Source of the DNA: Phycisphaerales bacterium
GTDB taxonomy: Bacteria > Planctomycetota > Phycisphaerae > Phycisphaerales > UBA5793
Assembly (NCBI GenBank): GCA_020852515.1
Contig: JADZAS010000025.1
Coordinates: 1 to 64,000, forward strand
DNA: 64,000 nucleotides
Reading direction: 5' to 3'
Shown here: positions 14,344-29,250 of the stretch, in pieces
How positions within the stretch are numbered: the stretch's first letter is position 1
Layout: each line of letters opens with the position of its first letter
Program-made: the position numbers and the translations under genes
Notes under the pieces: generated by a model
Database searches by the model: none
The model's input: only the letters and a program-made list of their open reading frames with translations
Told to the model about the DNA's origin: nothing

Positions 14344-15276
14344 TTACGGCTCCACGAGCGGATCGAAGATTTCACGAACGCGGAAGCGGTTGACAACTTC
14401 CTGGTCGATCCAGTAGCCGAGTTTGATGTCGAGATCCTCGTCGGTCTGGTCGAGCTTGAAGATGTTGTCCGGGACCTGCGCGCCTGCCGGGGGCGTGCCG
14501 CCGCCGAGGTTCGGGTCGAAGTAGTAGACGCCTTCCGGCACGAACGCCATATCCGCCTGGTGGTCGATGGTCTGGTTGTCGTTCTCGAAGCGCTCGCTCA
14601 TGCGATCGACGTGATTGTCGTTGTAGGCGACATTTCCGGTCCATCGGCGATTGGTGCCGTGGACGAGGTGGGCGAGCGTGGGTTCGGAGTGCTTGCCGTC
14701 GCGGACGCCGCGATCGCTCAGAACCGCGTAATTGCCGTCCAGGCTGGAGGCCTTCCACTGGGTGCGGAGGCGCCTGCCGGTGAGCTGCATCATCGCATAG
14801 GAGTTGTTGCACTCGCGGAGGGCGGCCCAGTCGTCGAGATAATTGCCGCCGAAGGTCCGGTCCCACGCGCCCTTGGTTTCGGGGTCGTTCTTGTCGGTGG
14901 CGAAGTCGTAGCCCACCTTGGCGCGGATGTTCGGGTTGACTTCAGCGGGATCCACGGCGAACTTGGGATCGAACAGCTTGTTGAAGATCAGCACCGACAT
15001 GATGTTGCCCACGGAGTTGTTCCCGTGGCCGAATTCGGCGGTGCTCTGCGCGTGCGCGAGGTTGATCTTCTCGGGCACGGGGTACTCATCGTTGTGGGCG
15101 TCGCCGTAGAAGACCATGCCCTTCTGGATGTCGCGCTGCTGCGAGGAGCACTGCATTGCGCGGGCGGTCTTGCGGGCACGCGCCAGAGCGGGCAGCAGCA
15201 GGCCGATGAGCAGCGCGATGATCGCGATGACCACCAGCAGCTCGATGAGTGTAAAGCCAAGTCGTTTCTTTGACAT
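14344..15276 (-). CDS. Prepilin-type N-terminal cleavage/methylation domain protein (paralogue 2)
   Basis: A 310-aa exported protein with the same plan as the gene at 12946: [36 protein letters not shown], a pseudopilin helix, then a C-terminal domain. Shared blocks include [23 protein letters not shown] and a KGMV-x-(Y/F) segment after the helix; the final glycine of the DG motif is replaced (ND-N-HV). The ATG at 15276 has AAGGAG eight nt upstream. It has its own promoter, leader and terminator, so the two paralogues are separate transcripts, likely from a duplication. Confidence 0.9.
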
Positions 15277-15747
15277 GCCCGGGTCTCCTTTGTCTTTGGT
15301 TGGGCGAAAGATCCGTGTCCATCTCTCCAGCAGCGTGCGCCTCGATGGAGCGGGGGCTTCCGATCGCGCAGGAACTGCATTGGTCCCGTACGGGCCACGA
15401 TGGCCCGCAATCAAGCATGGAAAGAAGCGGCCGTCTTCGGAACCGCCATTCGCAGAGCTGAAAGCCGGTGCAAATCGGGTTCCGATGACGCACTGGTAAT
15501 GCAGCGCGAAGACGGCACGAGTCGGATTGTCGGCGGGGGCTGGAGGGGTGACCGGGGAACCGGTCGATGATGGCGTCAGATCACAGGCGGAATAATCGAG
15601 GTATGCTCAGCCAGCGCCAAGTCGAATTGTCACGGACAAGAGTAATCGAATCTGAACCTCTTGTCAAGATAATTCTTCGTCCGCGGCCGAAGTTCGGTTG
15701 CCCCTTTTTTCAGTTCCGGCGCAGTTCGAGCCCCGCCCGGGCGCCCC
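15277..15747 (-). promoter_or_regulatory. Promoter and ~355-nt leader of second prepilin-type gene
   Basis: On the - strand, TTGACA (15662-15667) lies 17 bp from TACTCT (15639-15644). Immediately before the -10 is CAGATTCGAT, matching CAGATTCGCT in the first paralogue's promoter. The leader of about 355 nt contains CGGATTGTCGGCGGGGG (+ strand, 15523-15539), a near-copy of the first leader's element. I see no ORF in this 471-bp gap. The part from 15668 to 15747 holds only the end of the convergently spaced murG region. Confidence 0.65.
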
Positions 15748-16926
15748 TCATGGCCGTCCAACGGACTTGGCCGCCGCACAGAGCAGCGCCGCAATTTGCG
15801 CTGCAGCATCCGATGCGGGCTCGCTTCGGAGCCGCCAAACGACCTGCTCGCGCTGGGACGCGGCCGACATCAGTTCGAGGAGCCGGTTGCCCATGATCTC
15901 GAGATTGCGCGCCGGATCGATCGCATCGCCAACCAGCCAGGCCCGACCGGCTCGAACGTGCTCGATCGCGTTCAGTCGCTGGTGCTGGTCGCGGTGCCAG
16001 GGGTAGGGTGAAAAAAGGGTCGGTACGCAATTGGCGAGGGCTTCGGCCACGCTCGACGCGCCGCAACGCGACAAAGCAAGGTCCGCCGCGCCCCACGCCG
16101 ACGCCATGTCGGTGGAGAACGGCAGCACGCGCGCCGGCACGCCAGCATGGGCGTACGCCTCTCTGACCTCGGCCTCGTCGGAGGCGCCGGTCAGATGGAG
16201 GACCTGCCAACCGTCAAAGGCGGACCGCCGGTGAGTAAGCAGGTCGATCAGAAGTCGGTTAAATGTTCCTGCTCCTTGACTGGCGCCGGTCACCAGCAGC
16301 GTGGGCGTGTCCGGGTGGAGCCCGAAGCGCGCCCGGCACTCAGCGCGGCTGTGCGTTGCCACAGCACCGCGGCGGATGGGCATTCCCATCACTGACTTGT
16401 TGAACTCCGGATAGTCCGGGCAAGGCACAGCGGAGATGATGCGGCTGGAGAAGCGAGCCATGAGCCGGTTGGCTTTGCCCGGCGCGACGTCGAGATTGAC
16501 GAGGATCGACGGCACGCCGACCTTTGCTGCGGCTCGCGCGACCGGCGCCGCGACAAACCCACCCATCAGCGCGACTGCGACCGGGCGCGTTCGCGCCCGC
16601 TCTGTCAGTTCCGTCGCGGCCAGGCGGACGGACTGCCGCCAGCCGCGGATGAAGCGCAGCGGGCCGGCGGGAAAGGGCCGGAGCAGCATCGGCGCTGCCG
16701 GCAGGGGACGAAACGCGGCGCCCGCCTGCTCGAGGATGTCGCGGTCGATGGCCCGCTGCGAGCAGTAGAACTCCGCGCTCGCGCCGGGCGCAACGTCCAT
16801 CAACCGCTCGGCGATCGCCAGCGACGGGAAGAGGTGCCCGCCGGAGCCCCCGCCTGCAAAGATGACCAGTGGTGCGGTTTGCGGAGCCGTGGTGTTGCGG
16901 GCCGGGTTCACGATGCGGCATTGCAT
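15748..16926 (-). CDS. murG: UDP-GlcNAc:lipid I N-acetylglucosaminyltransferase
   Basis: MurG adds GlcNAc to lipid I to form lipid II on the cytoplasmic face of the membrane. The 392-aa GT28/GT-B protein has the N-terminal glycine loop FAGGGSGGHLFP, the VGVPSILVNLDVAPGKANR segment, the second loop VTGASQGAGTFNRLL and the C-terminal DLALSRCGASSVAEALANCVPTLFSPYP, which binds UDP-GlcNAc. It overlaps the HMG-CoA lyase gene by 19 bp, an odd pairing, and is about 8 kb from the other murein genes of this window. The start could lie a few codons further in. Confidence 0.92.
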   Translation of the reverse strand: MQCRIVNPARNTTAPQTAPLVIFAGGGSGGHLFPSLAIAERLMDVAPGASAEFYCSQRAIDRDILEQAGAAFRPLPAAPMLLRPFPAGPLRFIRGWRQSVRLAATELTERARTRPVAVALMGGFVAAPVARAAAKVGVPSILVNLDVAPGKANRLMARFSSRIISAVPCPDYPEFNKSVMGMPIRRGAVATHSRAECRARFGLHPDTPTLLVTGASQGAGTFNRLLIDLLTHRRSAFDGWQVLHLTGASDEAEVREAYAHAGVPARVLPFSTDMASAWGAADLALSRCGASSVAEALANCVPTLFSPYPWHRDQHQRLNAIEHVRAGRAWLVGDAIDPARNLEIMGNRLLELMSAASQREQVVWRLRSEPASDAAAQIAALLCAAAKSVGRP

Positions 16927-17834
16927 CGGCTGGATGTCTCGGCCTGGAACACTCGTCCCGGCAGACGCCGCCCGAGAGGCCGCTCGATGATGAGGCCGGC
17001 TTCGATGAGTTGGTCGAGTCGAACGCCGGTTTCGAAACCCATCCGGTTGAGGCAGTAGACCACGTCTTCAGTCGCGGCGTTTCCGGCCGCGCCCGGAGCA
17101 TACGGGCACCCGCCGAGTCCCCCCGTGGACGTGTCGAACGACATGACGCCGCGCTCGATGGCGCGAAGCAGGCAGGCCAGCGCCGTGCCGCGCGTGTCGT
17201 GGAGGTGCAGGGTGGTGTTGCTCGCGGGCACAAGCGATTCGATCGCGTCGTAGAGCGCATCGATGTCGGTGGGGGTTGCTACGCCGATCGTGTCGCCGAG
17301 ATCGAGTTCATCCACGCCGAGATCGAGCAGGCGCTGCGCCACCTGCGCGACTGCCGCCGGCGCCACCGGCCCCTCGTAGGGACAGGCGACGGCGCAGGAG
17401 ATGTAGGCGCGGACCTGCACGGATGCGGCGCGCGCGGTCTGCACGACCGGCTCGAATCGGGCGATGGACTCCGCAATGCCCGCGTTGGTGTTGCGCTGAT
17501 TGAACGTCTCAGACGCGGCGGTGAAGACGGCGATCTTCCTCACGCCGCAGGCGAGCGCCGCCTCCATGCCCTTCATGTTCGGGACGAGCGCGCTGTACAC
17601 GACTCCCGGGAGGCGCTCGATCGCGGCAAAAACCTCTGACGCGTCACCAAGTTGAGGAATCCACTTGCGACTGACGAAACTCGAGACTTCGATCTCAGCC
17701 ACGCCGGAGCGCGAGAGCGCGTTGATAAAGGCGATCTTGTTGCGCGTGGAGACTGGCTGCTTTTCGTTCTGAAGACCATCGCGCGGCCCGACGTCGGTGA
17801 TGCGGATGCGGCGCGGTGCGGCTGGTGCAGTCAT
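16908..17834 (-). CDS. Hydroxymethylglutaryl-CoA lyase
   Basis: HMG-CoA lyase cleaves HMG-CoA to acetoacetate and acetyl-CoA in leucine breakdown. A TIM-barrel of the HMGL-like family: VGPRDGLQNEK (substrate and metal Asp/Arg), SFVSRKWIPQLGD, SETFNQRNTN, the HDTRG metal site (HLHDTRGTALA) and the catalytic-cysteine loop GGLGGCPYAPGAAGNAATED. The ATG at 17834 is chosen because TATCAT ends seven nt before it and no ribosome site exists; an in-frame ATG at 17843 would fall inside that hexamer. A related MvaB/isopropylmalate-synthase-like activity is less likely given the intact GGCPYAPGA loop. Confidence 0.92.
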   Translation of the reverse strand: MTAPAAPRRIRITDVGPRDGLQNEKQPVSTRNKIAFINALSRSGVAEIEVSSFVSRKWIPQLGDASEVFAAIERLPGVVYSALVPNMKGMEAALACGVRKIAVFTAASETFNQRNTNAGIAESIARFEPVVQTARAASVQVRAYISCAVACPYEGPVAPAAVAQVAQRLLDLGVDELDLGDTIGVATPTDIDALYDAIESLVPASNTTLHLHDTRGTALACLLRAIERGVMSFDTSTGGLGGCPYAPGAAGNAATEDVVYCLNRMGFETGVRLDQLIEAGLIIERPLGRRLPGRVFQAETSSRCNAAS

Positions 17835-17841
17835 CGCGAGC

Positions 17842-17847
17842 ATGATA
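17842..17847 (-). promoter_or_regulatory. -10-like hexamer TATCAT before HMG-CoA lyase
   Basis: TATCAT on the - strand, 7 nt before the ATG at 17834, with no ribosome site; fits a leaderless mRNA. Confidence 0.45.
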
Positions 17848-17861
17848 GTCCGCCGACGCCA

Positions 17862-18749
17862 TCAGCCGGTCGCGGTGCGGCTCTGGCGGCGGTAGAGCAG
17901 CAGGCTCACCAGCAGCCAGAGGCCGACCCAGAACAGCAGCAGCGCAACCATGGCGCCCCGCGTCGGGCCGGTCATGGACATCGATCCCGATTGCGCGACA
18001 CTCAGCGAAGCCAGCGACGGCGCCTGCACGGCTACCGCGATCGCAGGCCTGCCCAGCGGGTCGTGGCGAATGGAGTCGATCAGGCTCAGCAGCGGGGGAG
18101 CCAGTTGTCCGGCGAGACTGCCCGAGGCGGCGTCGAGCCACGCGCCCAGACGCGATTCATCGAGTTCGCTCAGGGGTCGAGCCTGCGAGTCGGCGGCGGT
18201 GCGCCAGGTGTCGGTGTCAAGATTAACGATCAGTTCCGCCACGGCCGGCGCGCCCGCGTTCGCCGGTGTGAAGAGCGCAAACCGGAGGGTGTCTGGCTTG
18301 TCGTTCCACGCGGTGGTGCCGGGCTGGCTCCATGGCCAACGCCAACTCGACGCAGAAGCCGTGAACTCAATGTGATCGACGCCGGCGCCCGCTGCCGGAG
18401 TGAGGCGCCACGCATCCTCGTACTCGTACCTTTCGGGCATGAGAAATGAGGCGAACACGCCGCTGATGACCAGCGCGGGCACCGGCAGCGCCAGCGTCCA
18501 GAGGATGATGGCGAGCCAGGGCCCGATGGGGCGGCGCATCGCCGGGGTGAGAATGCCCACTGTGCGCAGATCCGAACCGCACTCGGGGCAGGACAGCGAG
18601 GTCAGTCCCGCGACGGGGTAGAGGCAATTCGCGCAGCACGGCTGTGCTACGGAGCGCACGCGCGACCGGCGGCCGATCATGAACGCGACGAACCCGATGA
18701 CCGCCACGAGCACCAGGACCAGGATGAGCAGGAGTCCTCCGGCCGCCAT
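17862..18749 (-). CDS. Zinc-ribbon membrane protein
   Basis: A 295-aa protein I cannot assign to a function. It has an N-terminal helix (residues ~4-23), a C4 zinc ribbon (C-x2-C-x12-C-x2-C, in CANCLYPVAGLTSLSCPECG, residues ~38-58), a second hydrophobic helix around 75-98, a long extracytoplasmic-looking middle, and a C-terminal helix ending RRQSRTATG. Its ATG overlaps the stop of the upstream gene (TAATG at 18747-18751), so the two are translationally coupled. Both lie behind the NDH-2/cNMP gene, suggesting a shared membrane redox context, but no catalytic residues are visible. Confidence 0.75.
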   Translation of the reverse strand: MAAGGLLLILVLVLVAVIGFVAFMIGRRSRVRSVAQPCCANCLYPVAGLTSLSCPECGSDLRTVGILTPAMRRPIGPWLAIILWTLALPVPALVISGVFASFLMPERYEYEDAWRLTPAAGAGVDHIEFTASASSWRWPWSQPGTTAWNDKPDTLRFALFTPANAGAPAVAELIVNLDTDTWRTAADSQARPLSELDESRLGAWLDAASGSLAGQLAPPLLSLIDSIRHDPLGRPAIAVAVQAPSLASLSVAQSGSMSMTGPTRGAMVALLLFWVGLWLLVSLLLYRRQSRTATG

Positions 18750-19315
18750 TATGCCTGCCCCTCCTGCGGCGGGAGCGCTCGCGTGGGAACGGGAGGCGCG
18801 ATCGGCGCCGGCAGCGGCGCGCCGCACTCGGGACAGACGTCGGAGGCGAAGCCGCCGATGTTGTAGCCGCAATTGAAGCAGCGATCGCGGCGACCGAGGG
18901 CCACATCGGGCAGCAGGGTCGCCGCGAGTGCGAGCAGGGGAGGAACAACCGTCAGCGCGACCAGGCCCCAGATGAGTTCGCCGGATTGCATGGCTGCGAT
19001 GGCCGCGACGGCGCCGCCGACGTAGACCGCGGGCAGCGCGATGGAGAACCGCTTGCCCGCGATGCATCGCGCCACGATGGGCGCCTGGGCCAGGCCGATG
19101 AACGTGCCGAACGCCAGGGAGAGCAGCACGGCGGGCCACAGGTCGATCGACGGCGACCATGAAATGCTGCCGAATTTGGCTGCGACAAACAGCGAACCGG
19201 TGCTCGCGGCGAGCGTCCAGAGCACGAGCCGGCCGCGCCGCTGCTCGAGTTCCACGGCGGCGGTCTGCGGATCGATCTCGACGGCGGAGGCGGGTGACGT
19301 GGTGGCGCTGGACAT
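18749..19315 (-). CDS. Membrane protein with C-terminal zinc ribbon
   Basis: A 188-aa protein with about four membrane helices (residues ~30-135) and a C-terminal C4 zinc ribbon, C-x2-C-x12-C-x2-C (CFNCGYNIGGFASDVCPECG). The same double-knuckle is found in the coupled downstream gene, where it is N-terminal. The ATG at 19315 (MSSATTSPAS) is preceded only by the end of the NDH-2/cNMP gene frame, 7 bp away. Function unknown. Confidence 0.75.
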   Translation of the reverse strand: MSSATTSPASAVEIDPQTAAVELEQRRGRLVLWTLAASTGSLFVAAKFGSISWSPSIDLWPAVLLSLAFGTFIGLAQAPIVARCIAGKRFSIALPAVYVGGAVAAIAAMQSGELIWGLVALTVVPPLLALAATLLPDVALGRRDRCFNCGYNIGGFASDVCPECGAPLPAPIAPPVPTRALPPQEGQA

Positions 19316-19322
19316 GGGACTT

Positions 19323-20966
19323 TCAGATCTTTGGGAGCGCGGTCGGTAATTTTGCAGGCGGCATCGGCTCGCGCCGGGCCTGGGCCGTCTGCTCGAACTG
19401 CTGGCGCAGGACATCGAGGTGGGTAATGAGCGAACCGAACTCGCCTTTTTCGATGCTGAGCACATCCATCGGCTCGACGCAGCGCACGGTGGCGTTGCGC
19501 GGGGCGCGGTTGAGCAGCGCCATCTCGCCGAAGTAGTGGCCCGCTTCGAGCGAGGCGAGAACCTGCGCTTGGCCGGATTGCTCATCGCGCCGCTCCACGT
19601 CCGCGCGGCCGCGGATGATGATGTAGACGCGATCGCCGAGGTCGCCCTGTTCGAACACGGCCTGGCCGGGTTCGAAGTGCTCGTGATTGATTCCGCTGCT
19701 GCGGCCGACGCGCAGCTGCACGATGTCGGGCGGCAGGAATAGATCGAGCAGCCAGGACAAGCCGACGCGCACCTTGCTCTGGATGCCCGGCAGTTTGCTC
19801 CAGTAGACGGTTCTCCAGAGGAACCACGCCGGAAAGCCGGCCAGACGCACGCCCATGACCTGAGCGACGCCGCGGCGATGACCCAGCGCGCACAGCGAGC
19901 CCAGACCTTTGAAGGCGAAAGGCTGCAGCGGGCGCTTGTTCTCGGCGGCCAGGATGTTGGCGGCCGCGACTCTTGCTTCGCGAATCGCGTGCTGGGCCGT
20001 GGGCGGCGCGTACGCCCGCTCGCCGACGGCGCCGGGCAGCGGTACCAGCGCGCAGTCGCCCAGCGCCCACACGCTGCCCTGCCCCTGCACGCGCAGGTGC
20101 TCATCGACGATGATGCGCCCGCGATCGCTGGGGAGATCGAGCGCTTCGCACAGCGGATTGGGATGGCTCGGCACCGTGGCCACGAGCGTCGCGCAGGCGA
20201 GCTTCGTGCCGTCTGCCAGCGCCGCGTGCTCGGATGTGGCGGCGGCAAGTCGCGCGCCGAGCATGATCTCGATGCCGCGCCGGCGCAGCAGGTTCTGCGC
20301 GTAGAGGGCCAGCTTCTCATCGACTTCGGGAAGGATGCGCTCGCGCGAATGGAGCAGGACGAAGCGGCACATCGCGCGCGTGATGGTGGGATAACTGCGC
20401 AGCGCGCGGCGGACGAAGTCGTGCAGTTCCGCCACGACTTCCACGCCGGAGAACCCGCCGCCGGCGACGACGAACGTCAGCAGCCTCGCTCGCCAGTCCG
20501 CACGCGTCTCCGCGTCGGCCTCTTCGAGGATGCGAATGACGTGATTGCGCAGGGCCAGTGCGTCGCCGTGCGTCTTGAAGGGCATGGCGTGTTCGGCGAG
20601 ACCGGGCAGCCCGCGGAAGTCCGTCACGTTGCCCAGCGCGATGACGAGGTGGTCATAAGGCAGAACAAGCGGGCGCGGCTGAAAGCCGGGCGAGCAGATG
20701 ACGTGCCGCTCGGCGAGGTCCACTCCCTCGACGTCGCGCATGTGCAGATGAGCGCGCGGGATGAGACGTCGGATGGGCGTGGTGGTGTCGGCAATGCCCA
20801 CGCTGCCTGAAATGACTTCCGGCAGCATCGGCTGGAAGACGAGGTAGTTCTCGCGATTGACGAGATGCACCTGCACGCGGTCGCCGCCCAGACGCAGCAG
20901 GTGCCTGGCGGTGTAAACACCGGCAAATCCGCCGCCGAGGATGACGATGCGCGTGGGATGAGCCAT
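19323..20966 (-). CDS. NDH-2-type NAD(P)H dehydrogenase fused to a cyclic nucleotide-binding domain
   Basis: A 547-aa fusion. Residues ~1-420 are a type II NADH:quinone oxidoreductase: FAD loop VILGGGFAGVYTARHL, NAD loop VVAGGGFSGVEVVAEL, a GDCALVP flavin site, PPTAQHAIREA, and an amphipathic C-terminal membrane-binding segment. Residues ~423-525 are a cNMP domain of the CRP/CAP fold with the phosphate-binding cassette GHYFGEMALLNRAPRNATVRC; the Arg and Thr that hold the cyclic phosphate are kept. No DNA-binding helix-turn-helix follows. It is in a - strand unit 34 bp after the tetrahaem cytochrome gene and probably feeds electrons from NADH to quinone under ligand control (inference). Confidence 0.9.
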   Translation of the reverse strand: MAHPTRIVILGGGFAGVYTARHLLRLGGDRVQVHLVNRENYLVFQPMLPEVISGSVGIADTTTPIRRLIPRAHLHMRDVEGVDLAERHVICSPGFQPRPLVLPYDHLVIALGNVTDFRGLPGLAEHAMPFKTHGDALALRNHVIRILEEADAETRADWRARLLTFVVAGGGFSGVEVVAELHDFVRRALRSYPTITRAMCRFVLLHSRERILPEVDEKLALYAQNLLRRRGIEIMLGARLAAATSEHAALADGTKLACATLVATVPSHPNPLCEALDLPSDRGRIIVDEHLRVQGQGSVWALGDCALVPLPGAVGERAYAPPTAQHAIREARVAAANILAAENKRPLQPFAFKGLGSLCALGHRRGVAQVMGVRLAGFPAWFLWRTVYWSKLPGIQSKVRVGLSWLLDLFLPPDIVQLRVGRSSGINHEHFEPGQAVFEQGDLGDRVYIIIRGRADVERRDEQSGQAQVLASLEAGHYFGEMALLNRAPRNATVRCVEPMDVLSIEKGEFGSLITHLDVLRQQFEQTAQARREPMPPAKLPTALPKI

Positions 20967-21000
20967 GCCGGTCAACGCCTCGCGTGCTCGATGGCTTGCG

Positions 21001-22212
21001 TCACTTGCCGATGAGATCGGCCATCTCCTTGATCGCCTTCGTCCAGTCGTCGCCTTCCTGCCCGGCGGTTGCCGCTTTGCTGGCGGTGCGGAAGGCGGCG
21101 GGAACTTCACCTCCGGCCGCCTTGAAGCACGCCTCACCCAGCGCGACCAGGCCGAAGGCCAGGTTCTTGCGCTGCACCTGGCTGCTGGCGTTGGCAGCGA
21201 GCGCGGCGAGATCGGCCGCGGCGGCCTTGCACGCCTCGGCGCTGTACGTCGCTGCGGCGAGCGCGGCGGGGGTGTTGGCGCCGAAGTGCTTGGCCGCGAT
21301 CTTCGCGCCGGCCTCGTAGATGGCGACCAGTTCGTCGGCCGCGGCGGTGTCCCAGCCCTTGCTCTTCCATGCGGCGGACTGAGCCTGCGCCGCCTCGAGC
21401 GACGCCGCCTGGCCGATCGCCCAGAGTTTGGCGTTGATCCACGGCACACTGGAGTCGTCCCAGTGAATCCTGCCGTGCTCATCGCCGTAGATGTAATGGT
21501 TGTACGAGTACAACTCGAACTGCAGCGCCGGGTGGCCCGCGTCGAGCAGGTCCTTATCGATCTGAAGATGGCACGAGACGCACATCTGGGCCCGAGCGGC
21601 GAGATCGGTCGTGTCGATCAGGCCGTACTCAGTCCGGAGCCCGGCGGCGCCGATCTTGCCGCGCTGCTCGTTGGTCCAGCCCTCCGTCGCGTGCGGCTCG
21701 AGGTACTTCTCGCCGGCGCCGTGGCAGGTTTCACAGCCGACGCCCTGCTCGACATCAAACGTCTCATCGCGTTGCGGCTCGGGCGGGTACGTGGTGTGAC
21801 AGGAAAGACAGCGCTCGCTGGCGGCGGGGTCGGCGAGGCTGAGTTTCTCGGCGATCTCCGTCGACGCATCGTCGAAAAGCGTCTCGCACGCGTCCTTGTG
21901 CGGATCGTGGTCGAACCAGATGTTGTACTCGTCGCCGATGAGTTTGCCCGAGTGCTCGGTGGGCTTCTCATCATCGTGGCAGCCGCTGCCCATGCACCCG
22001 GATACGCCGATGTACGTAAAGCCGGGGAGGATCGGCGGCGCTGCGGCATCGGCCCGGCACAGGGCCTCGGGCGCGCCTTCGCTCAAGATCGCACATGACA
22101 AAGCCGTCTCGCCGCGCGTGCCCAGCGTGGCCGCGATGAGCGCTGCGCTCATGCCGCAGATCACGCAGCCTGACAGTCCGAACAGATGAGATTCCCGGCG
22201 TCTTGACGTCAT
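21001..22212 (-). CDS. Exported tetrahaem cytochrome c (c554-like)
   Basis: A 403-aa protein with an N-terminal membrane segment/signal (residues ~10-30) and four haem-binding motifs: C-x4-CH (CMGSGCH, 73-79), CLSCH (135-139), CETCH (160-164) and CVSCH (211-215). The organisation and the GxGCETCHGAG segment resemble cytochrome c554/multihaem family proteins. The C-terminal ~150 residues are Ala-rich helical and haem-free. The ATG at 22212 is preferred because GAGG lies six nt upstream. It is divergent from the redox genes starting at 22429 and heads the unit with the NDH-2/cNMP gene, so it is a likely periplasmic electron carrier for that module. Confidence 0.88.
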   Translation of the reverse strand: MTSRRRESHLFGLSGCVICGMSAALIAATLGTRGETALSCAILSEGAPEALCRADAAAPPILPGFTYIGVSGCMGSGCHDDEKPTEHSGKLIGDEYNIWFDHDPHKDACETLFDDASTEIAEKLSLADPAASERCLSCHTTYPPEPQRDETFDVEQGVGCETCHGAGEKYLEPHATEGWTNEQRGKIGAAGLRTEYGLIDTTDLAARAQMCVSCHLQIDKDLLDAGHPALQFELYSYNHYIYGDEHGRIHWDDSSVPWINAKLWAIGQAASLEAAQAQSAAWKSKGWDTAAADELVAIYEAGAKIAAKHFGANTPAALAAATYSAEACKAAAADLAALAANASSQVQRKNLAFGLVALGEACFKAAGGEVPAAFRTASKAATAGQEGDDWTKAIKEMADLIGK

Positions 22213-22428
22213 TGCGCACCTCACTGAATACCTGAGTCACGTTACACAGCCCGGACAGGATACCAGCGCCGGCCGCGCCGGTCAGTCGCTGCGATCCGCG
22301 GCGGCGCGGGTTGCGGCGGTCAAGAACGCGCCCTCAACCAGCCGATGAGACCGACTGTCGGGCGGCGCCGCGGCGCTGTCGCCGATGGTCGCACGCGCTC
22401 TCCCACGCGCACACCAGGAGCCCTTCGG
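22213..22428. promoter_or_regulatory. Divergent control region of the redox gene island
   Basis: A 216-bp gap between the divergent cytochrome unit and the ferredoxin/cytochrome unit. It must carry both promoters, but I find no strong -35/-10 pair and no clear dyad. A cNMP-dependent regulator site of the TGTGA-n6-TCACA type is not evident. Confidence 0.4.
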
Positions 22429-24048
22429 ATGGCCAAGCGAATGCTCACGGCGAGACTCTCCGGAGATCGCAGCGCCATCCTCAGGGCGCCCGACCTGGTC
22501 GGCATCGACATTTTCGCCGATCTCGACCGCAAAGTGATCGACAAGTTTCCCGGCACGGTGGTGCGCCGCGAGTTTGCCGCCGGCGAGGTCATCTGCCGCG
22601 AGGGCGAAGGCGGCACCACGGCGTTCTATCTGCTCGAAGGTACGGTGAAGGTCTTCATCGCCCGGCGGCTGGGCGCGGCTGCATCCCGGCCGCGGCAAGG
22701 CTGGCGCGCCGCCATCGGCCGGTGGTTCGGCCAGAAGCCCCTCCATCCGCCCCGCCACAGCAGCGACGCCATCATCCCCATCGACGCCAACGTCGATCTG
22801 ACGTACGGCCAGCCGCGGACGACGCTGGGCGCCGGAGAAGTCTTCGGCGAGATGAGTTGCCTCAACCTCGCTCCGCGCTCGGCCACGGTGGTGGCCGAGA
22901 CTGACTGCGTCATGCTCGAAATCCTGCGCAACATGTACGAACAGTTGCAGCGCTCGCCCACCTTTCGCGAGAAGATGGATGCGAACTACCGCGCCCGGGC
23001 GCTGCAGGGGCACCTGCGCAACGTGCCGATCTTCCGCGACCTGCCCGACGACGTGCTCGAACGCCTGCAGAGCCGTGCTCAGTTGATCGCCGTCGATGCC
23101 GGCACGACCATCTTCCGCGAAAGCGACGAAGCCGACGGCGTCTATGTCATCCGCCTCGGGCAGGTGCGCGTGAGCCAGAAGTTTCCCGGCGGCGAGCGGA
23201 CGCTGGCGTACCTCACGCGCGGCGATTTTTTCGGCGAGACCGGACTGCTTCGCCGCACCACGCGCAACGCCACCTGCCAGGCGGTCGATCACCCCATCAT
23301 GGAGGGCGGGCGCAAGCGCAAGCCCGCGCGGGTGGAACTCGTGAAGATCGCGGCCGACGACTTCGCCGCCGTACTCGACGAGTTTCCGCGCATCAAGGGT
23401 CGGCTCGAGACCGTCACCCAGGAGCGCATCCGCCAGGGGCAGAGGGCGCGGGTGACGCTGACGGTCTCGGCGCCGTCGAGGCGGGTCGAAGAACTCGGCC
23501 TGCTGCAGGGGCAGAACCTCATGCTCATCGACCTCGAGCGCTGCACGCGCTGCGACCAGTGCGTCGATGCGTGCGTGTCGGCGCACGAGGACGGCATCAG
23601 CCGGCTGTTTCGCACCGGGCCGCGCTACGACAAGTACCTCGTGCCGTCGAGTTGCCGCATGTGTCTCGATCCCGTGTGCATGATCGGCTGCCCGGTTGGA
23701 TCGATCCGCCGCAGCGAAGACCTGAGCATCATCATCGAAGACTGGTGCGTGGGCTGCGGCATCTGCGCCAAGCAGTGTCCGTACGAGTCCATCGTGATGC
23801 ACGAACTCGAGGAGTACGGCGAGGACGTGAGCGAGCGGCTCATGCGCATCGCGGAATCCGGCGAAGTCATGGCCGTCACCGAGCGCGCGGCCGTGTGCGA
23901 CCAGTGCGAAGATCTGCCCTCGGGCCCGGCGTGCGTCTACTCGTGCCCGCACGACGCGGCCCATCGCGTGAACGCGGCAGAGTTCCTCAGCGCGGTCGGG
24001 CTGTTCGCCGCGGCCGCCGATCGAGAAGAGCAAGGCGGGGCCTCCTGA
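22429..24048 (+). CDS. Double cNMP-domain protein fused to a four-[4Fe-4S] ferredoxin module
   Basis: A 539-aa fusion. Two CRP-fold cyclic nucleotide-binding domains (residues ~30-185, with a ~45-residue insert, and ~200-325) each carry a phosphate cassette: GEVFGEMSCLNLAPRSATV and GDFFGETGLLRRTTRNATC. Residues 365-520 hold sixteen cysteines in four clusters: 372/375/378/382, 409/412/417/421, 440/443/446/450 and 490/493/502/506. This spacing, including CRMCLDPVCMIGCP, is that of the electron-transfer beta subunits of molybdopterin-type oxidoreductases (NrfC/HybA/DmsB type). No helix-turn-helix is present. The ATG at 22429 has AGGAG eight nt upstream. It is followed after 2 bp by a membrane b-type cytochrome, so it looks like a CISM-type beta/gamma pair without a catalytic subunit. 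Confidence 0.88.
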   Translation: MAKRMLTARLSGDRSAILRAPDLVGIDIFADLDRKVIDKFPGTVVRREFAAGEVICREGEGGTTAFYLLEGTVKVFIARRLGAAASRPRQGWRAAIGRWFGQKPLHPPRHSSDAIIPIDANVDLTYGQPRTTLGAGEVFGEMSCLNLAPRSATVVAETDCVMLEILRNMYEQLQRSPTFREKMDANYRARALQGHLRNVPIFRDLPDDVLERLQSRAQLIAVDAGTTIFRESDEADGVYVIRLGQVRVSQKFPGGERTLAYLTRGDFFGETGLLRRTTRNATCQAVDHPIMEGGRKRKPARVELVKIAADDFAAVLDEFPRIKGRLETVTQERIRQGQRARVTLTVSAPSRRVEELGLLQGQNLMLIDLERCTRCDQCVDACVSAHEDGISRLFRTGPRYDKYLVPSSCRMCLDPVCMIGCPVGSIRRSEDLSIIIEDWCVGCGICAKQCPYESIVMHELEEYGEDVSERLMRIAESGEVMAVTERAAVCDQCEDLPSGPACVYSCPHDAAHRVNAAEFLSAVGLFAAAADREEQGGAS

Positions 24049-24050
24049 GC

Positions 24051-24923
24051 ATGCTCGTGGATCGAAAGCACATCCCGTGGGCGGGGGCGACCATCGCAAT
24101 CGGCGCGGCGGCGAGCGCGTGGTATCTTTCCGATGCGCCGCGCCACCTCAACGGGCCGTCTGGATCGACGGTGGTGGGGCTGACGCTCGGTTCGGCCGCC
24201 CTGGCCATCATGCTCTTCTGCACGGCACTCTCGCTCAAGCGCAAGGTACCGCACTGGCGACTGGGCCGGGCGTCCACGTGGCTGCGCGGCCACATCTGGC
24301 TGGGGCTGCTCACGTGCCTGCTCGTGGGTCTGCATGCGGCGTTCCGTCTCGGCGGTCCGATGACGACGCTGCTGTGGATCGTACTGGCGCTGGTCACGCT
24401 CAGCGGGCTGCTGGGCCTGCTGATTCAGCAGTTCGTGCCGCGCCTGCTGCTGCACAGCGTGCCCGGCGAGACGATCGCGCAGCAGTTGAGGCGGCGGCTG
24501 AACGATCTGCCAATGCTGGCCGAGCGCGTGGTGGTGCAATACGCCGGCGCGATCGATACCGCCGCGCCGCCCTGGAACGATGGTGGGGACGTCGCCGGGC
24601 AGCCGCCGGCCGGGGGCGAGCCGATCCGCCGCTTTTACCTCGATCACTTGCGCGGGTACCTCGCCGGCGAGAATGGCGGCGATGTGCGCGACCCACACCG
24701 CGCCGAAAATCTTTTCAGCGCGCTGCACACGATGACGCCGGCTCACGCGCACGCCGGCATCGCCGAACTGAGTTCGATCTATCACCTGCACCGCGACCTG
24801 CTGCGCCAACGGCGTCTCATGCGCGTGCTGTTCGCCTGGCTGCTGTTTCACGTGCCGCTGAGTTGGGCGCTGCTGGTGCTCGTGGCGGCGCACGCGGTGA
24901 TGGCGCTGCGCTTCTGGACCTGA
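24051..24923 (+). CDS. Membrane b-type cytochrome (predicted di-haem, NarI/b561-like)
   Basis: A 290-aa protein with about five membrane helices (residues ~8-27, 40-62, 80-100, 106-128 and 258-285). His81/His95 and His267/His281 form two H-x13-H pairs within helices, the spacing used by bis-His haem b in quinol-oxidising membrane subunits. Between helices 4 and 5 lies a ~120-residue soluble region with further histidines. I do not recognise the family by name. The gene is 2 bp after the ferredoxin fusion and 10 bp before the tetrahaem cytochrome, so it is the probable membrane anchor linking the quinone pool to that ferredoxin or to the cytochromes. Confidence 0.7.
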   Translation: MLVDRKHIPWAGATIAIGAAASAWYLSDAPRHLNGPSGSTVVGLTLGSAALAIMLFCTALSLKRKVPHWRLGRASTWLRGHIWLGLLTCLLVGLHAAFRLGGPMTTLLWIVLALVTLSGLLGLLIQQFVPRLLLHSVPGETIAQQLRRRLNDLPMLAERVVVQYAGAIDTAAPPWNDGGDVAGQPPAGGEPIRRFYLDHLRGYLAGENGGDVRDPHRAENLFSALHTMTPAHAHAGIAELSSIYHLHRDLLRQRRLMRVLFAWLLFHVPLSWALLVLVAAHAVMALRFWT

Positions 24924-24933
24924 GGAACCGTCG

Positions 24934-25482
24934 ATGCCCGACAGCCGACCGATTGAAGAGCGATTCGACGTGACCTACGTCCGCCGCACGCACGGGCCGG
25001 ACCTGGCCAATCGCTGGCTCGCGTGGCTGGTCGTGCTCGGCGGCGGAGGCTTGCTTGCCATGCTGGTGGCGCGCGGCGACAACCGCGCGTATTCGTCGGG
25101 CAGCCTGAGCACGGTGCACGCGAGCTTCGGCAATGACTGCGCACAGTGTCACCAGCCTGCCGCGGATGGCGCTTCCAATTTCTTCCTGCCCGTTGCCGAT
25201 GACGCCTGCCTGCGCTGCCACGCCGCGGTTGAGCACGCGCCAAACCAGACGCAATTCAGCGCGGCGGATGCTGTCGTCATCCCCGGCCACCGCGGGCCGG
25301 TGCGGATGGCGGCGGGTTGTGCCGTGTGCCACGTTGAGCACCGCGGCCGCGATGCCGACCTCAACCTCATTCCCGATCGCCTGTGCGTGCAGTGCCATGC
25401 GAACCTGAGCCGCGACGGCCTGCACCCGGCCGAGGCGCCGCCGGCAATACCGGATGAATCAGTCGGGGAGGACCGGCCATGA
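24934..25482 (+). CDS. Membrane-anchored tetrahaem cytochrome c
   Basis: A 182-aa protein with one N-terminal membrane helix (residues ~28-46) and four CxxCH motifs at 69-73, 92-96, 129-133 and 151-155. Extra histidines (62, 119, 136) could serve as distal ligands. The compact spacing resembles cytochrome c3/NapC-NrfH-like electron-transfer proteins, though it is not a clear match to either. Its stop overlaps the start of the hexahaem gene (ATGA at 25479-25482), implying a stoichiometric partner. Confidence 0.85.
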   Translation: MPDSRPIEERFDVTYVRRTHGPDLANRWLAWLVVLGGGGLLAMLVARGDNRAYSSGSLSTVHASFGNDCAQCHQPAADGASNFFLPVADDACLRCHAAVEHAPNQTQFSAADAVVIPGHRGPVRMAAGCAVCHVEHRGRDADLNLIPDRLCVQCHANLSRDGLHPAEAPPAIPDESVGEDRP

Positions 25483-26483
25483 CGGCCCGCGGCGTTGCAC
25501 TCATCCTCGCCGGCGGCTGCATGGCGCTGCTCGGCGCGTCGCTGCTCATCGCCCAGCCGCGCACCAGCCCGTCCGTTGAGCCGACGATCGTGAACATGAT
25601 CTTCGACTTCGGGCAGAGCCATCCGGACTGGGCGGTGCTCCGCGGCGACCGCGAGGATGCCGCAACTGTGAAGTTCAACCACGCTCGGCACATGGACGCC
25701 GGGAACGCGAACGTGCAGGAGGCGCTGCAGGCGCATGGCCAGCAGGCCCGGGCGATCGAGCGGCTGGCCGACGGCCAGCTGTCGCTCACGTGCGCTTCGT
25801 GTCACCAACCGGATGCGCAGGGTCGGTACATGAAGCCGATTTCGTTCGAGCAGCACTGCGTCGCCTGCCACGAGCAGAACCTCATCCAGATCGGCCCGAG
25901 GCGAGCGGTGCACGGCAACGTGTCGGAACTCATCGAGCAAGTGAATCGAGAACTTCTGGCCAGCGTGCTCAAAGAGAATCTCCTGCATCCGCCGGACAAA
26001 GCCGTTGAGGAATCGGAGATCGACATCGACGGCGAGATCTCGCGCGATCGGCACAAGGAGTTCGACCGGGTTCTCAACGGGTGCGGCAAGTGCCATTACA
26101 GCGCGGCCATTGAGCGGCCCAAGCGGCCGCGCGGCGCGCCGTTTGAACTGGCGTCACCGGAGATTCCCCAGCGCTGGCTGGAGCGTTCGGTCTTCTCGCA
26201 CGAAGCGCACCGCGCGCTGACGTGCCTGGAGTGTCACGCGCAGGCGACCACGGGGACGGAGACGTCCGACATCATGCTGCCGTCGATCGACTCGTGCCGC
26301 GCGTGCCACGCGCCCGAGGTGGGCGTGCGCTCGGATTGTGTGCTGTGCCATGTGTACCACCCGCCGCTGGAGCCGGCCCCGACGGGGACGCTGACGATCG
26401 AGGAGTACGCCGCAGCGGGCGGAGACGCTCCGGAGGCGACTACCGGGGCCGCAACTTCCTCAGCCGATCAATCGCGGCGTTGA
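25479..26483 (+). CDS. Exported hexahaem cytochrome c
   Basis: A 334-aa protein with an N-terminal signal/anchor (residues ~5-25) and six CxxCH motifs: 105-109, 127-131, 202-206, 249-253, 273-277 and 287-291. A F-N-H-x-x-H element (residues ~66-71) and FSHEAHRALTC (~239-249) supply likely distal ligands, as in cytochrome c7/c3-type haem pairs. It is the last gene of the + strand redox unit. Its 3' end overlaps the convergent aminotransferase gene by 44 bp. The electron acceptor is not encoded here. Confidence 0.85.
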   Translation: MTARGVALILAGGCMALLGASLLIAQPRTSPSVEPTIVNMIFDFGQSHPDWAVLRGDREDAATVKFNHARHMDAGNANVQEALQAHGQQARAIERLADGQLSLTCASCHQPDAQGRYMKPISFEQHCVACHEQNLIQIGPRRAVHGNVSELIEQVNRELLASVLKENLLHPPDKAVEESEIDIDGEISRDRHKEFDRVLNGCGKCHYSAAIERPKRPRGAPFELASPEIPQRWLERSVFSHEAHRALTCLECHAQATTGTETSDIMLPSIDSCRACHAPEVGVRSDCVLCHVYHPPLEPAPTGTLTIEEYAAAGGDAPEATTGAATSSADQSRR

Positions 26484-27651: not shown

Positions 27652-29250
27652 ATGATAGCGAAGCGGGCGCCAAACTCGCAGCGGACGGTTGGTGAGAGCG
27701 CTGCGGCTCGCCGCAAGCGGCTTGGCGCGTTCTACACGCCGCCTGATCTCGTGGGGGCCATTCTCGACGAGGCGATGGCGCCGATTCTTGAGCCCATGGT
27801 CGATGCGGCGTCGTGCCGGGCGCGCCTGGCGAGGCTGCGCATCATCGACCCGGCGTGCGGCAGCGGCCATTTTCTCCTCGGCGCCTGGCGGCGGCTGGCG
27901 GACCTCATTGAGCGCATCGCGGCCGTGGAGTCGCGTCGCGACTGTCTGCAACTTGCGGCGGCGAGCCTGCACGGCATTGACATCGACCCGCAGGCGCGTG
28001 CCGCGGGCCGGCCGCTGCTTGAAATGGAGTGTGAGCGGTGGGGGATGGAGCCGGGCGATTTTGCTCACTGGTGCCGACTCGGCGATGCGCTGCTGGGGGA
28101 GCTGATCGAGCCGGGCACATTTGGTCTGGTCGTGGGCAATCCGCCGTTCGTGGATTCCGAGTCGATGTGTGCCGGGAATCTGTCGCGCCGGCGTGGGCTG
28201 GCGGGCCGATACGCCACGGCGCGCGGCAACTGGGATCTGGCATCGCTCTTCGTCGAACTGGCGCTGCGGCTCGCGCGGCCGGGTGGGCGCGTCGGCCTCG
28301 TCCTGCCACGGAGGCTGCTGGCCTCCGACCATGCCCGGCACGTGCAGGCGCTCCTTCTAAAACAGACGATCGAATCAATTCGCGTCAACCGGCTTGATGC
28401 CTTCGAGGAAGCCGCGGTCGAGACGGTGAGCGTGGTCATGCGTCGCGGTCGCGGCGGGGACGGTCAACTGATTCGAATCATCGACGGACCAAGTTGCTGG
28501 TCCTTTGCTCAGCGTGATCTGGCGCCCCTGCCGCCGGGGCACTGGTCGGCAGCGCTGGCCGGCCGCGGGAGCGCCCTGTCGACTGCGATCAATCCGGCGG
28601 CGCTGCGCGAGCGGCCGCGCCTCCGGGAGTGCGCCTTCGTGGGCGATGGGGCGACCACGGCCGAGGCATACCGCCTGCGCGAGGCGATCGTCGAGCGGCG
28701 CGATGCGACAGACGCCTTTGTGCAACTGATCAATACCGGCACGATCGATCCGTACCAGTCGCACTGGGGCACGCGGCCGACGCGCTATCTCAAGACGGCG
28801 TGGATCGAGCCGGTCGTGCCGCTCGGTTGGCTCGAGAGCCATATGCCGCGCCGCGCTGCGCAGGCGTGCTCCGCCAAGGTGCTGGTGGCCGGGCTGGCGG
28901 GCCGCATCGAAGCCGTGGTCGATGACGGTTCAGCGCTGTGCGGCAAGTCGGCGGTGCAGGTGATCCCGCTTGAGCCGGTGCTGTGTCACGCGCTGTGCGC
29001 CTGGCTCAATTCAACGCCCGTCAATGATTTCTACCGCGTGCTGTTCGGCTCGCGCGGCTTCGGTGTCAGGTCCATGCACATCGGCCCGCGGCAGCTCGAG
29101 CAGTTGCCTACGTGGCGGCTCAATGATCGTGCAATCGCGGAGGAACTTGCTGAATTGAGCAGGGCGCTGCATTCCCGAGAAGTTCATTCCAACCAGAGCC
29201 GACGCCTGCACGCGCGCATCGACGCAATCGTCTCAGAATTGCTCGCGTGA
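27652..29250 (+). CDS. Adenine-N6 DNA methyltransferase (Eco57I/TaqI-like), solitary
   Basis: A 532-aa SAM-dependent methyltransferase. Motif I is DPACGSGHFLLGAW (residues ~67-80) and the catalytic motif IV is GNPPF (~162-166), the N/D-PP-Y/F signature of N6-adenine enzymes; LGAFYTPPDLV near the N terminus is the motif X typical of gamma-class enzymes. The C-terminal ~200 residues resemble a TaqI-like target-recognition region (FVQLINTGTIDPYQSHWG). No PD-(D/E)xK endonuclease segment or neighbouring restriction gene is seen, so it is an orphan methyltransferase or the remnant of a type II/IIG system. Divergent from the aminotransferase by 57 bp. Confidence 0.88.
   Translation: MIAKRAPNSQRTVGESAAARRKRLGAFYTPPDLVGAILDEAMAPILEPMVDAASCRARLARLRIIDPACGSGHFLLGAWRRLADLIERIAAVESRRDCLQLAAASLHGIDIDPQARAAGRPLLEMECERWGMEPGDFAHWCRLGDALLGELIEPGTFGLVVGNPPFVDSESMCAGNLSRRRGLAGRYATARGNWDLASLFVELALRLARPGGRVGLVLPRRLLASDHARHVQALLLKQTIESIRVNRLDAFEEAAVETVSVVMRRGRGGDGQLIRIIDGPSCWSFAQRDLAPLPPGHWSAALAGRGSALSTAINPAALRERPRLRECAFVGDGATTAEAYRLREAIVERRDATDAFVQLINTGTIDPYQSHWGTRPTRYLKTAWIEPVVPLGWLESHMPRRAAQACSAKVLVAGLAGRIEAVVDDGSALCGKSAVQVIPLEPVLCHALCAWLNSTPVNDFYRVLFGSRGFGVRSMHIGPRQLEQLPTWRLNDRAIAEELAELSRALHSREVHSNQSRRLHARIDAIVSELLA

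Follow-up and report, generated by a model that had tools for sequence, protein, structure and literature searches.

The island at positions 17862-26483 of the window, the whole stretch of 64,000 nucleotides analysed here, appears rather likely to encode a transmembrane electron conduit that runs from NAD(P)H to the periplasm and stands under the direct control of cAMP or cGMP. The conduit itself is well supported by sequence comparison, and the evidence as a whole consists of the parts of the system, the way in which these are conserved and linked, the ligand residues that cyclic nucleotide-binding (cNMP) domains have retained and an association with class III cyclases. We give an even chance to a broader reading, namely that this is a widespread, unnamed system in which a second messenger would directly gate a conduit composed of an NAD(P)H flavoenzyme, a cNMP-gated carrier of four [4Fe-4S] clusters, a bis-haem-b protein and a ten-haem wire, with a cyclase of its own in some lineages, and that within the genus this electron chain appears to be where cNMP signals received by this domain family end.

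Composition of the island

The island consists of eight genes (Table 1) arranged in two divergent arms, with D, C, B and A on the minus strand and E, F, G and H on the plus strand, and in both arms neighbouring genes overlap or are separated by at most 34 bases. An earlier sequence-only reading had listed divergent arms, an NDH-2/cNMP fusion, a double-cNMP/16-Cys ferredoxin and 14 c-haem sites, and every one of these features was recovered at its position; by motif count, the haem sites are distributed over the multihaem cytochromes D, G and H as 4 + 4 + 6, which gives the claimed total. Pfam assignments above the cut-off were obtained for C, D, E, G and H. D carries one CX4CH and three CXXCH motifs, and with 44.8 bits against PF13435 (gathering score 20.8) and its four haem sites it belongs to the cytochrome c554 family. 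The start of E shows a conserved MAKRM, and an AGGAG lies just upstream of 22429, hence translation of E most likely begins there rather than at 22345. No sigma-70-like promoter sites were found in the island, the D-E intergenic region included. The host assembly comprises 4.72 Mb and is planctomycete-like, with Phycisphaeraceae and other Planctomycetota as its closest named relatives.

Table 1. Genes and intergenic region of the island, with positions in the window.
Feature	Product or type	Position	Strand	Basis
A	Membrane protein, N-terminal zinc ribbon and three hydrophobic helices	17862..18749	-	genus-specific
B	Membrane protein, C-terminal zinc ribbon	18749..19315	-	RUBY_RBDX E=1.2e-4, below cut-off; genus only
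C	Type II NADH dehydrogenase (NDH-2) carrying a cNMP-binding domain at its C-terminus; cassette FGEMALLNRAPRNATV	19323..20966	-	Pfam
D	Exported tetrahaem cytochrome c, c554 family	21001..22224	-	Cytochrome_C554 2.5e-11; motifs
D-E	Divergent intergenic region, 204 bases	22225..22428	.	
E	Two cNMP-binding domains, then 16-Cys domain (four [4Fe-4S]); predicted cytoplasmic electron carrier	22429..24048	+	cNMP_binding 2e-34, Fer4 family
F	Inner-membrane protein, two H-x13-H pairs, predicted bis-haem b	24051..24923	+	four invariant His
G	Membrane-anchored tetrahaem cytochrome c3-like protein	24934..25482	+	Cytochrom_c3_2 7.6e-10; four CXXCH
H	Exported hexahaem cytochrome c7-like protein	25479..26483	+	Cytochrome_C7 1.2e-9; six CXXCH

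C matches Pyr_redox_2 (PF07992, 9.1e-39), NDH2_C (PF22366, 2e-6; 28.3 bits against a cut-off of 27.7) and cNMP_binding (3.1e-21), and its best PDB matches are NDH-2 chains. By these domains, a two-dinucleotide-fold flavoprotein with an NDH2 C-terminal membrane domain, C is classified as a type II NADH dehydrogenase. NDH-2 enzymes normally reduce quinone. A lost quinone motif was considered as a pointer to whether the acceptor of C is quinone or E, and was set aside because C shares AQxAxR with unfused NDH-2 relatives, so that the motif does not discriminate between the two.

The ferredoxin part of E is highly conserved, with its 16 Cys residues present at 99-100% in 92 sequences. Similarly, the two H-x13-H pairs of F (H81/H95 and H267/H281) are found in 99-100% of 74 homologues, which share no further conserved His, and this paired-His layout is typical of bis-haem-b conduits such as the ferric reductases. 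The match of F to Ferric_reduct (PF01794) lies below the gathering score (E=0.005, 17.3 bits against 28), and searches with its AF2 model (pLDDT 90.9) by Foldseek and VIA-align returned only generic helical bundles, with no haem protein and no PDB counterpart. F is predicted to hold two b haems across the inner membrane, and occupancy of the clusters of E and of the haems of F, G and H is likewise presumed.

Conservation and linkage of the gene set

All eight genes, A-H, are retained in four further species of the same genus. Two species pairs yielded dN/dS values of 0.07-0.27 for C-H, indicating strong purifying selection, and of 0.21-0.41 for A and B (0.27-0.35 for A alone), indicating weaker selection. 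A tblastn search of modules from other genera gave no homologues of A and B. On account of this restriction to one genus, and of their rate of evolution, the highest in the island, the two were dropped from the conserved unit and rejected as members of the electron path. The two coupled zinc-ribbon membrane proteins of the sequence-only reading are present in the island, but as a genus-specific addition. In G031, a species of another family, D-E-F-G-H are kept at 38-66% identity, without C, A and B.

Relatives were sought in 84,980 species genomes using conserved stretches of E, which led to at least 560 of them, and the best 80 of these at least 560 come from Planctomycetota, Verrucomicrobia, Lentisphaerales, Alpha- and Gammaproteobacteria and Acidobacteria. 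Linkage was assessed in a sample made up of these best 80, loci collected earlier and two Sphingobium plasmids. F adjoins E in 84 of the 88 sampled loci with enough sequence, and a G/H cytochrome lies beside E in 68 of the 74 with enough flank; because the scan patterns were derived from E alone, this linkage is not built into the search. In many relatives G and H form a single ten-haem gene, and D likewise travels with E-F-G/H across phyla. The neighbourhood check proposed with the earlier reading was carried out: among some 90 relatives, drawn from Planctomycetota, Verrucomicrobia, Proteobacteria and Acidobacteria, almost all have E, F and the ten-haem G/H cytochrome side by side. These sequence comparisons support the view that E-F-G/H with D forms one functional unit. 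Within the sample of relatives, locus L020 is a duplicate of L013, and the titles of MAGs are partly unreliable. In the annotated records consulted, the module proteins are called 'hypothetical' or are labelled by domain only.

In the tree of E, the window protein falls into a planctomycete clade with an SH-aLRT support of 97-99%. The other main clade carries an FAD/2Fe-2S reductase, D, a beta-barrel protein and a five-haem protein, and the AF2 model of this barrel has its best Foldseek matches among MOMP, AlgE and OprD-type porins. Genes for the porin and the five-haem protein were not found in the planctomycete clade of the window protein. A search for the barrel protein in G000, G001, G004 and G031 gave no match, neither partner was found in the host genome, and the island encodes no outer-membrane porin. 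The description of the island as a self-contained electron path does not fully apply and should be given up, since no gene of the island codes for the final periplasmic acceptor and the host genome lacks both the porin and the five-haem protein seen in the other clade.

The entry enzyme differs between modules. A search with C alone among 248 genomes of the class recovered full-length NDH-2/cNMP fusions in three genomes of the genus and in five others; all five of the latter sit in a cluster ordered E-F-G-H-D-C, and ordinary NDH-2 homologues end ahead of the cNMP domain. The assignment of C to the redox module is borne out by this unbiased search, which found full-length fusions only beside E-F-G-H-D. 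Among 59 loci with long flanks, the entry enzyme is a membrane-anchored FAD/NAD/[2Fe-2S] reductase in 30 and the NDH-2/cNMP fusion in 7, none has both, and in 17 no entry enzyme was recognised. Six proteobacterial loci show a third arrangement, in which E carries an N-terminal flavoprotein domain that has no CxxC and finds its best PDB match in the ferredoxin-NADP reductase 3ab1. Judged by their domains, the entry modules vary while their chemistry is constant, as all are NAD(P)H flavoenzymes. The one reductase-like match in the host (G000:C3) was rejected as a partner, being distant in sequence and not close to the island.

Ligand residues of the cNMP domains and associated cyclases

Of 92 sequences of E, all have the Glu that binds ribose in the first cNMP domain, and 88 have the Arg that binds phosphate; the C homologues displayed all keep the FGE...R of the cassette. 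For the second cNMP domain of E, the window protein has an intact cassette (FGE..TRNA), but most relatives have a degenerate one. Loss of the cassette, which the sequence-only reading had named as evidence against its proposal, is seen for the second domain of E in most relatives, while C and the first domain have retained it. No CRP/FNR-type helix-turn-helix was matched in C or E. In the host genome and in G004, no cNMP-domain proteins other than these two were found, and the three other members of the genus have one more at most. A CRP-type protein was likewise not found in the host.

The host genome encodes four class III cyclase domains, all on contigs other than that of the island; in the one domain examined, the positions for metal, Lys, Asn and Arg are conserved. 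In a genome of the same family that lacks the island, neither cNMP-domain proteins nor cyclases were found. In some relatives the association is closer. Three genomes, all of one genus, have an FHA-linked class III cyclase within the cluster, between H and D, and it is the only cyclase detected in each of them; in Pan216 the gene after C, on the same strand, encodes a GAF-linked cyclase. In addition, cyclases adjoin the FAD/2Fe-2S reductase gene in three loci and lie upstream of fused E in two. A further candidate, locus L065, was dropped as its profile match was unconfirmed by Pfam.

From the background density, about 0.9 cyclases would be expected in the 1.43 Mb of examined loci, and nine were seen that are Pfam-confirmed or near-identical to confirmed ones, or seven when a near-identical trio is counted once (Poisson p 3.5e-5, and 0.002 at doubled background). 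At the level of whole genomes, cyclases occur in 18/18 genomes with E and in 108/230 without E among the 248 analysed from the class (Fisher p 2.7e-6, with no correction for phylogeny or genome size). Most module loci are without an adjacent cyclase, and several of the module cyclases are without the usual purine-binding Lys. On the Sphingobium plasmids, a calcineurin-like phosphoesterase gene, annotated as CpdA in one record, follows directly after G/H. The conserved cassette and the cyclase association together support, indirectly, direct cyclic-nucleotide control as their best explanation.

Proposed electron path, alternatives and related systems

In the mechanism that we propose, NADH would be oxidised at the cytoplasmic face by the NDH-2 part of C, and the electrons would pass, directly or via quinol, to the four [4Fe-4S] clusters of E. 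From E they would move to the two b haems of F and thereby cross the membrane, and from F they would reach the ten c haems of G and H and then an acceptor in the periplasm, either the tetrahaem D or another one. This flow would be switched or tuned by cAMP or cGMP, which would bind to C at its cNMP domain and to E at the first of its two, and the nucleotide would be supplied by class III cyclases, which in the host would be those encoded elsewhere in the genome and in relatives those within the module. Such control would be a post-translational alternative to CRP. From the architecture we infer that the carriers follow one another as NAD(P)H, flavin, [4Fe-4S], haem b and haem c, and in this direction, and our statements on which nucleotide would bind, and with which sign it would act, are of the same inferred kind.

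Three other readings have to be weighed against this one. It is possible, although we hold it to be distinctly less probable, that two systems lie side by side, in which case C would deliver electrons to the quinone pool, F/G/H would be a quinol-oxidising cytochrome unit, and E would carry ferredoxin-level electrons from elsewhere, with no transfer from C to E. The ordinary NDH-2 features of C, including its C-terminal membrane-binding region, would fit such an arrangement, as would G031, which has the core without C nearby. However, it leaves aside that NDH-2/cNMP fusions were found only beside the module, and that elsewhere the role of C is taken by a 2Fe-2S reductase or by the ferredoxin-reductase-like domain fused to E, both of which are suited to one-electron transfer to clusters. 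Both points speak against two separate systems.

The near-invariance of Glu and Arg in the first E domain across phyla, the FGE...R kept in C, the presence of cyclases within or beside the module in several lineages, their genome co-occurrence with E and the island-free genome of the same family also make it unlikely that the conduit is real but free of cyclic-nucleotide control, with cNMP folds that would be structural, serve as dimerisation modules or bind another ligand, even though the second E domain has no ligand residues in most relatives and an adjacent cyclase is missing from most modules. Inward flow, in which a periplasmic donor would reduce D, G and H, and F and E would pass the electrons on to NAD(P)H or reduced ferredoxin, we regard as improbable. 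In its favour, ammonia oxidisers use cytochromes of the c554 family to receive electrons from oxidation enzymes, and electron uptake could be the task of the porin and the five-haem protein found in the other clade; against this, NDH-2, the entry enzyme of the island, works essentially only as an NADH oxidase, and the island encodes no periplasmic oxidase or dehydrogenase.

The conduit that we favour resembles several known systems in part. In Tmc, Hmc, Qrc and DsrMKJOP of sulfate reducers, an Fe-S ferredoxin, a membrane subunit (b-type or other) and a multihaem cytochrome c likewise join cytoplasm and periplasm, and weak profile matches link E to DsrO and G/H to TmcA, DsrJ and QrcA. All NCBIfam equivalog scores, however, fall far below their cut-offs (TmcA 23.7/114, HmcA 13.5/400, QrcA 17.8/180, DsrO 34.9/200, DsrJ 23/100), and these complexes are without cNMP domains, an NAD(P)H flavoprotein partner or a cyclase association. 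The enzymes of the NOX, ferric reductase and MsrQ type share with the module the two b haems on paired His in two helices, as predicted for F, and the feed from an NAD(P)H flavoenzyme, whereas the module inserts a cNMP/4x[4Fe-4S] protein between flavin and haem b and has a ten-haem cytochrome as the receiver. Mtr-type porin-cytochrome systems also possess a multihaem periplasmic wire, to which the second clade of the module adds a beta-barrel and a five-haem protein; unlike Mtr, the host has neither, the barrel of the second clade is AlgE/OprD/MOMP-like, and no CymA- or MtrA-type match above the cut-off was obtained in the module. Compared with NDH-2, C has every domain of that enzyme and, in addition, a C-terminal cNMP domain that, within the sampled class, was found only with the module.

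In bacteria, what is known of cAMP and cGMP concerns mainly transcription factors. In Shewanella, CRP/cAMP adjusts NADH dehydrogenases and electron export by transcription (PMC12210985); in such control of respiration the cyclic nucleotide acts via transcription, whereas in the module the cNMP domain lies within the redox proteins. The joining of a cNMP fold to an FAD/NAD(P) oxidoreductase has a precedent in a thioredoxin reductase with an N-terminal cNMP-binding domain, for which the part of the source consulted describes, unlike in the module, no ferredoxin, haem b or multihaem partners (PMC6544261). As in the sequence-only reading, no named system of such a composition was matched, here among the profiles and the open-access literature; no published description of the module was found in the latter, and one may exist elsewhere. 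There is a real chance that this is the first described transmembrane redox conduit with a second-messenger receptor built in. If the proposal is true, the conserved receptor would be the electron-transfer protein itself, so that a switch in respiration or electron export could take only seconds and need no new transcripts, and a role would be supplied for many planctomycete class III cyclases. The module spans hundreds of genomes in several phyla, and Rhodopirellula, Rubripirellula, Marinobacter and Sphingobium are among its cultured bearers.

Genes flanking the island

The methyltransferase gene keeps its position just downstream of the island in 5/5 genomes of the genus. The N-terminus of the prepilin-like product is typical of planctomycete pseudopilins.

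Coordinates of features in the window and in relatives
Feature	Sequence	Position	Strand	Detail
Gene for a product with a prepilin-type N-terminal sequence (25 residues)	window	14344-15414	-	
Orphan N6-adenine DNA methyltransferase	window	27652-29250	+	Pfam matches Eco57I/N6_Mtase
Two overlapping matches to H (hexahaem cytochrome)	L014	12180-13424		
Multihaem cytochrome, 1329 aa	L100, Sphingobium plasmid	14872-18861		near module
Second-clade porin-like and five-haem genes	G013:C21	126449-133565		

Cytochrome and porin-like genes in relatives

In the relative L014, the H query gives two overlapping matches that use part of the query twice, which suggests that the gene is internally duplicated or split. 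A multihaem cytochrome is encoded near the module in L100, and the second-clade porin-like and five-haem genes of G013 form a tandem duplicate pair away from the ferredoxin gene E.

Labelling of one relative

The contig of L020 (WYBR01000109.1) is titled Vicinamibacteraceae in GenBank, a label that looks wrong: it seems to be identical to G003:C95, which comes from a planctomycete in the same genus as the window.
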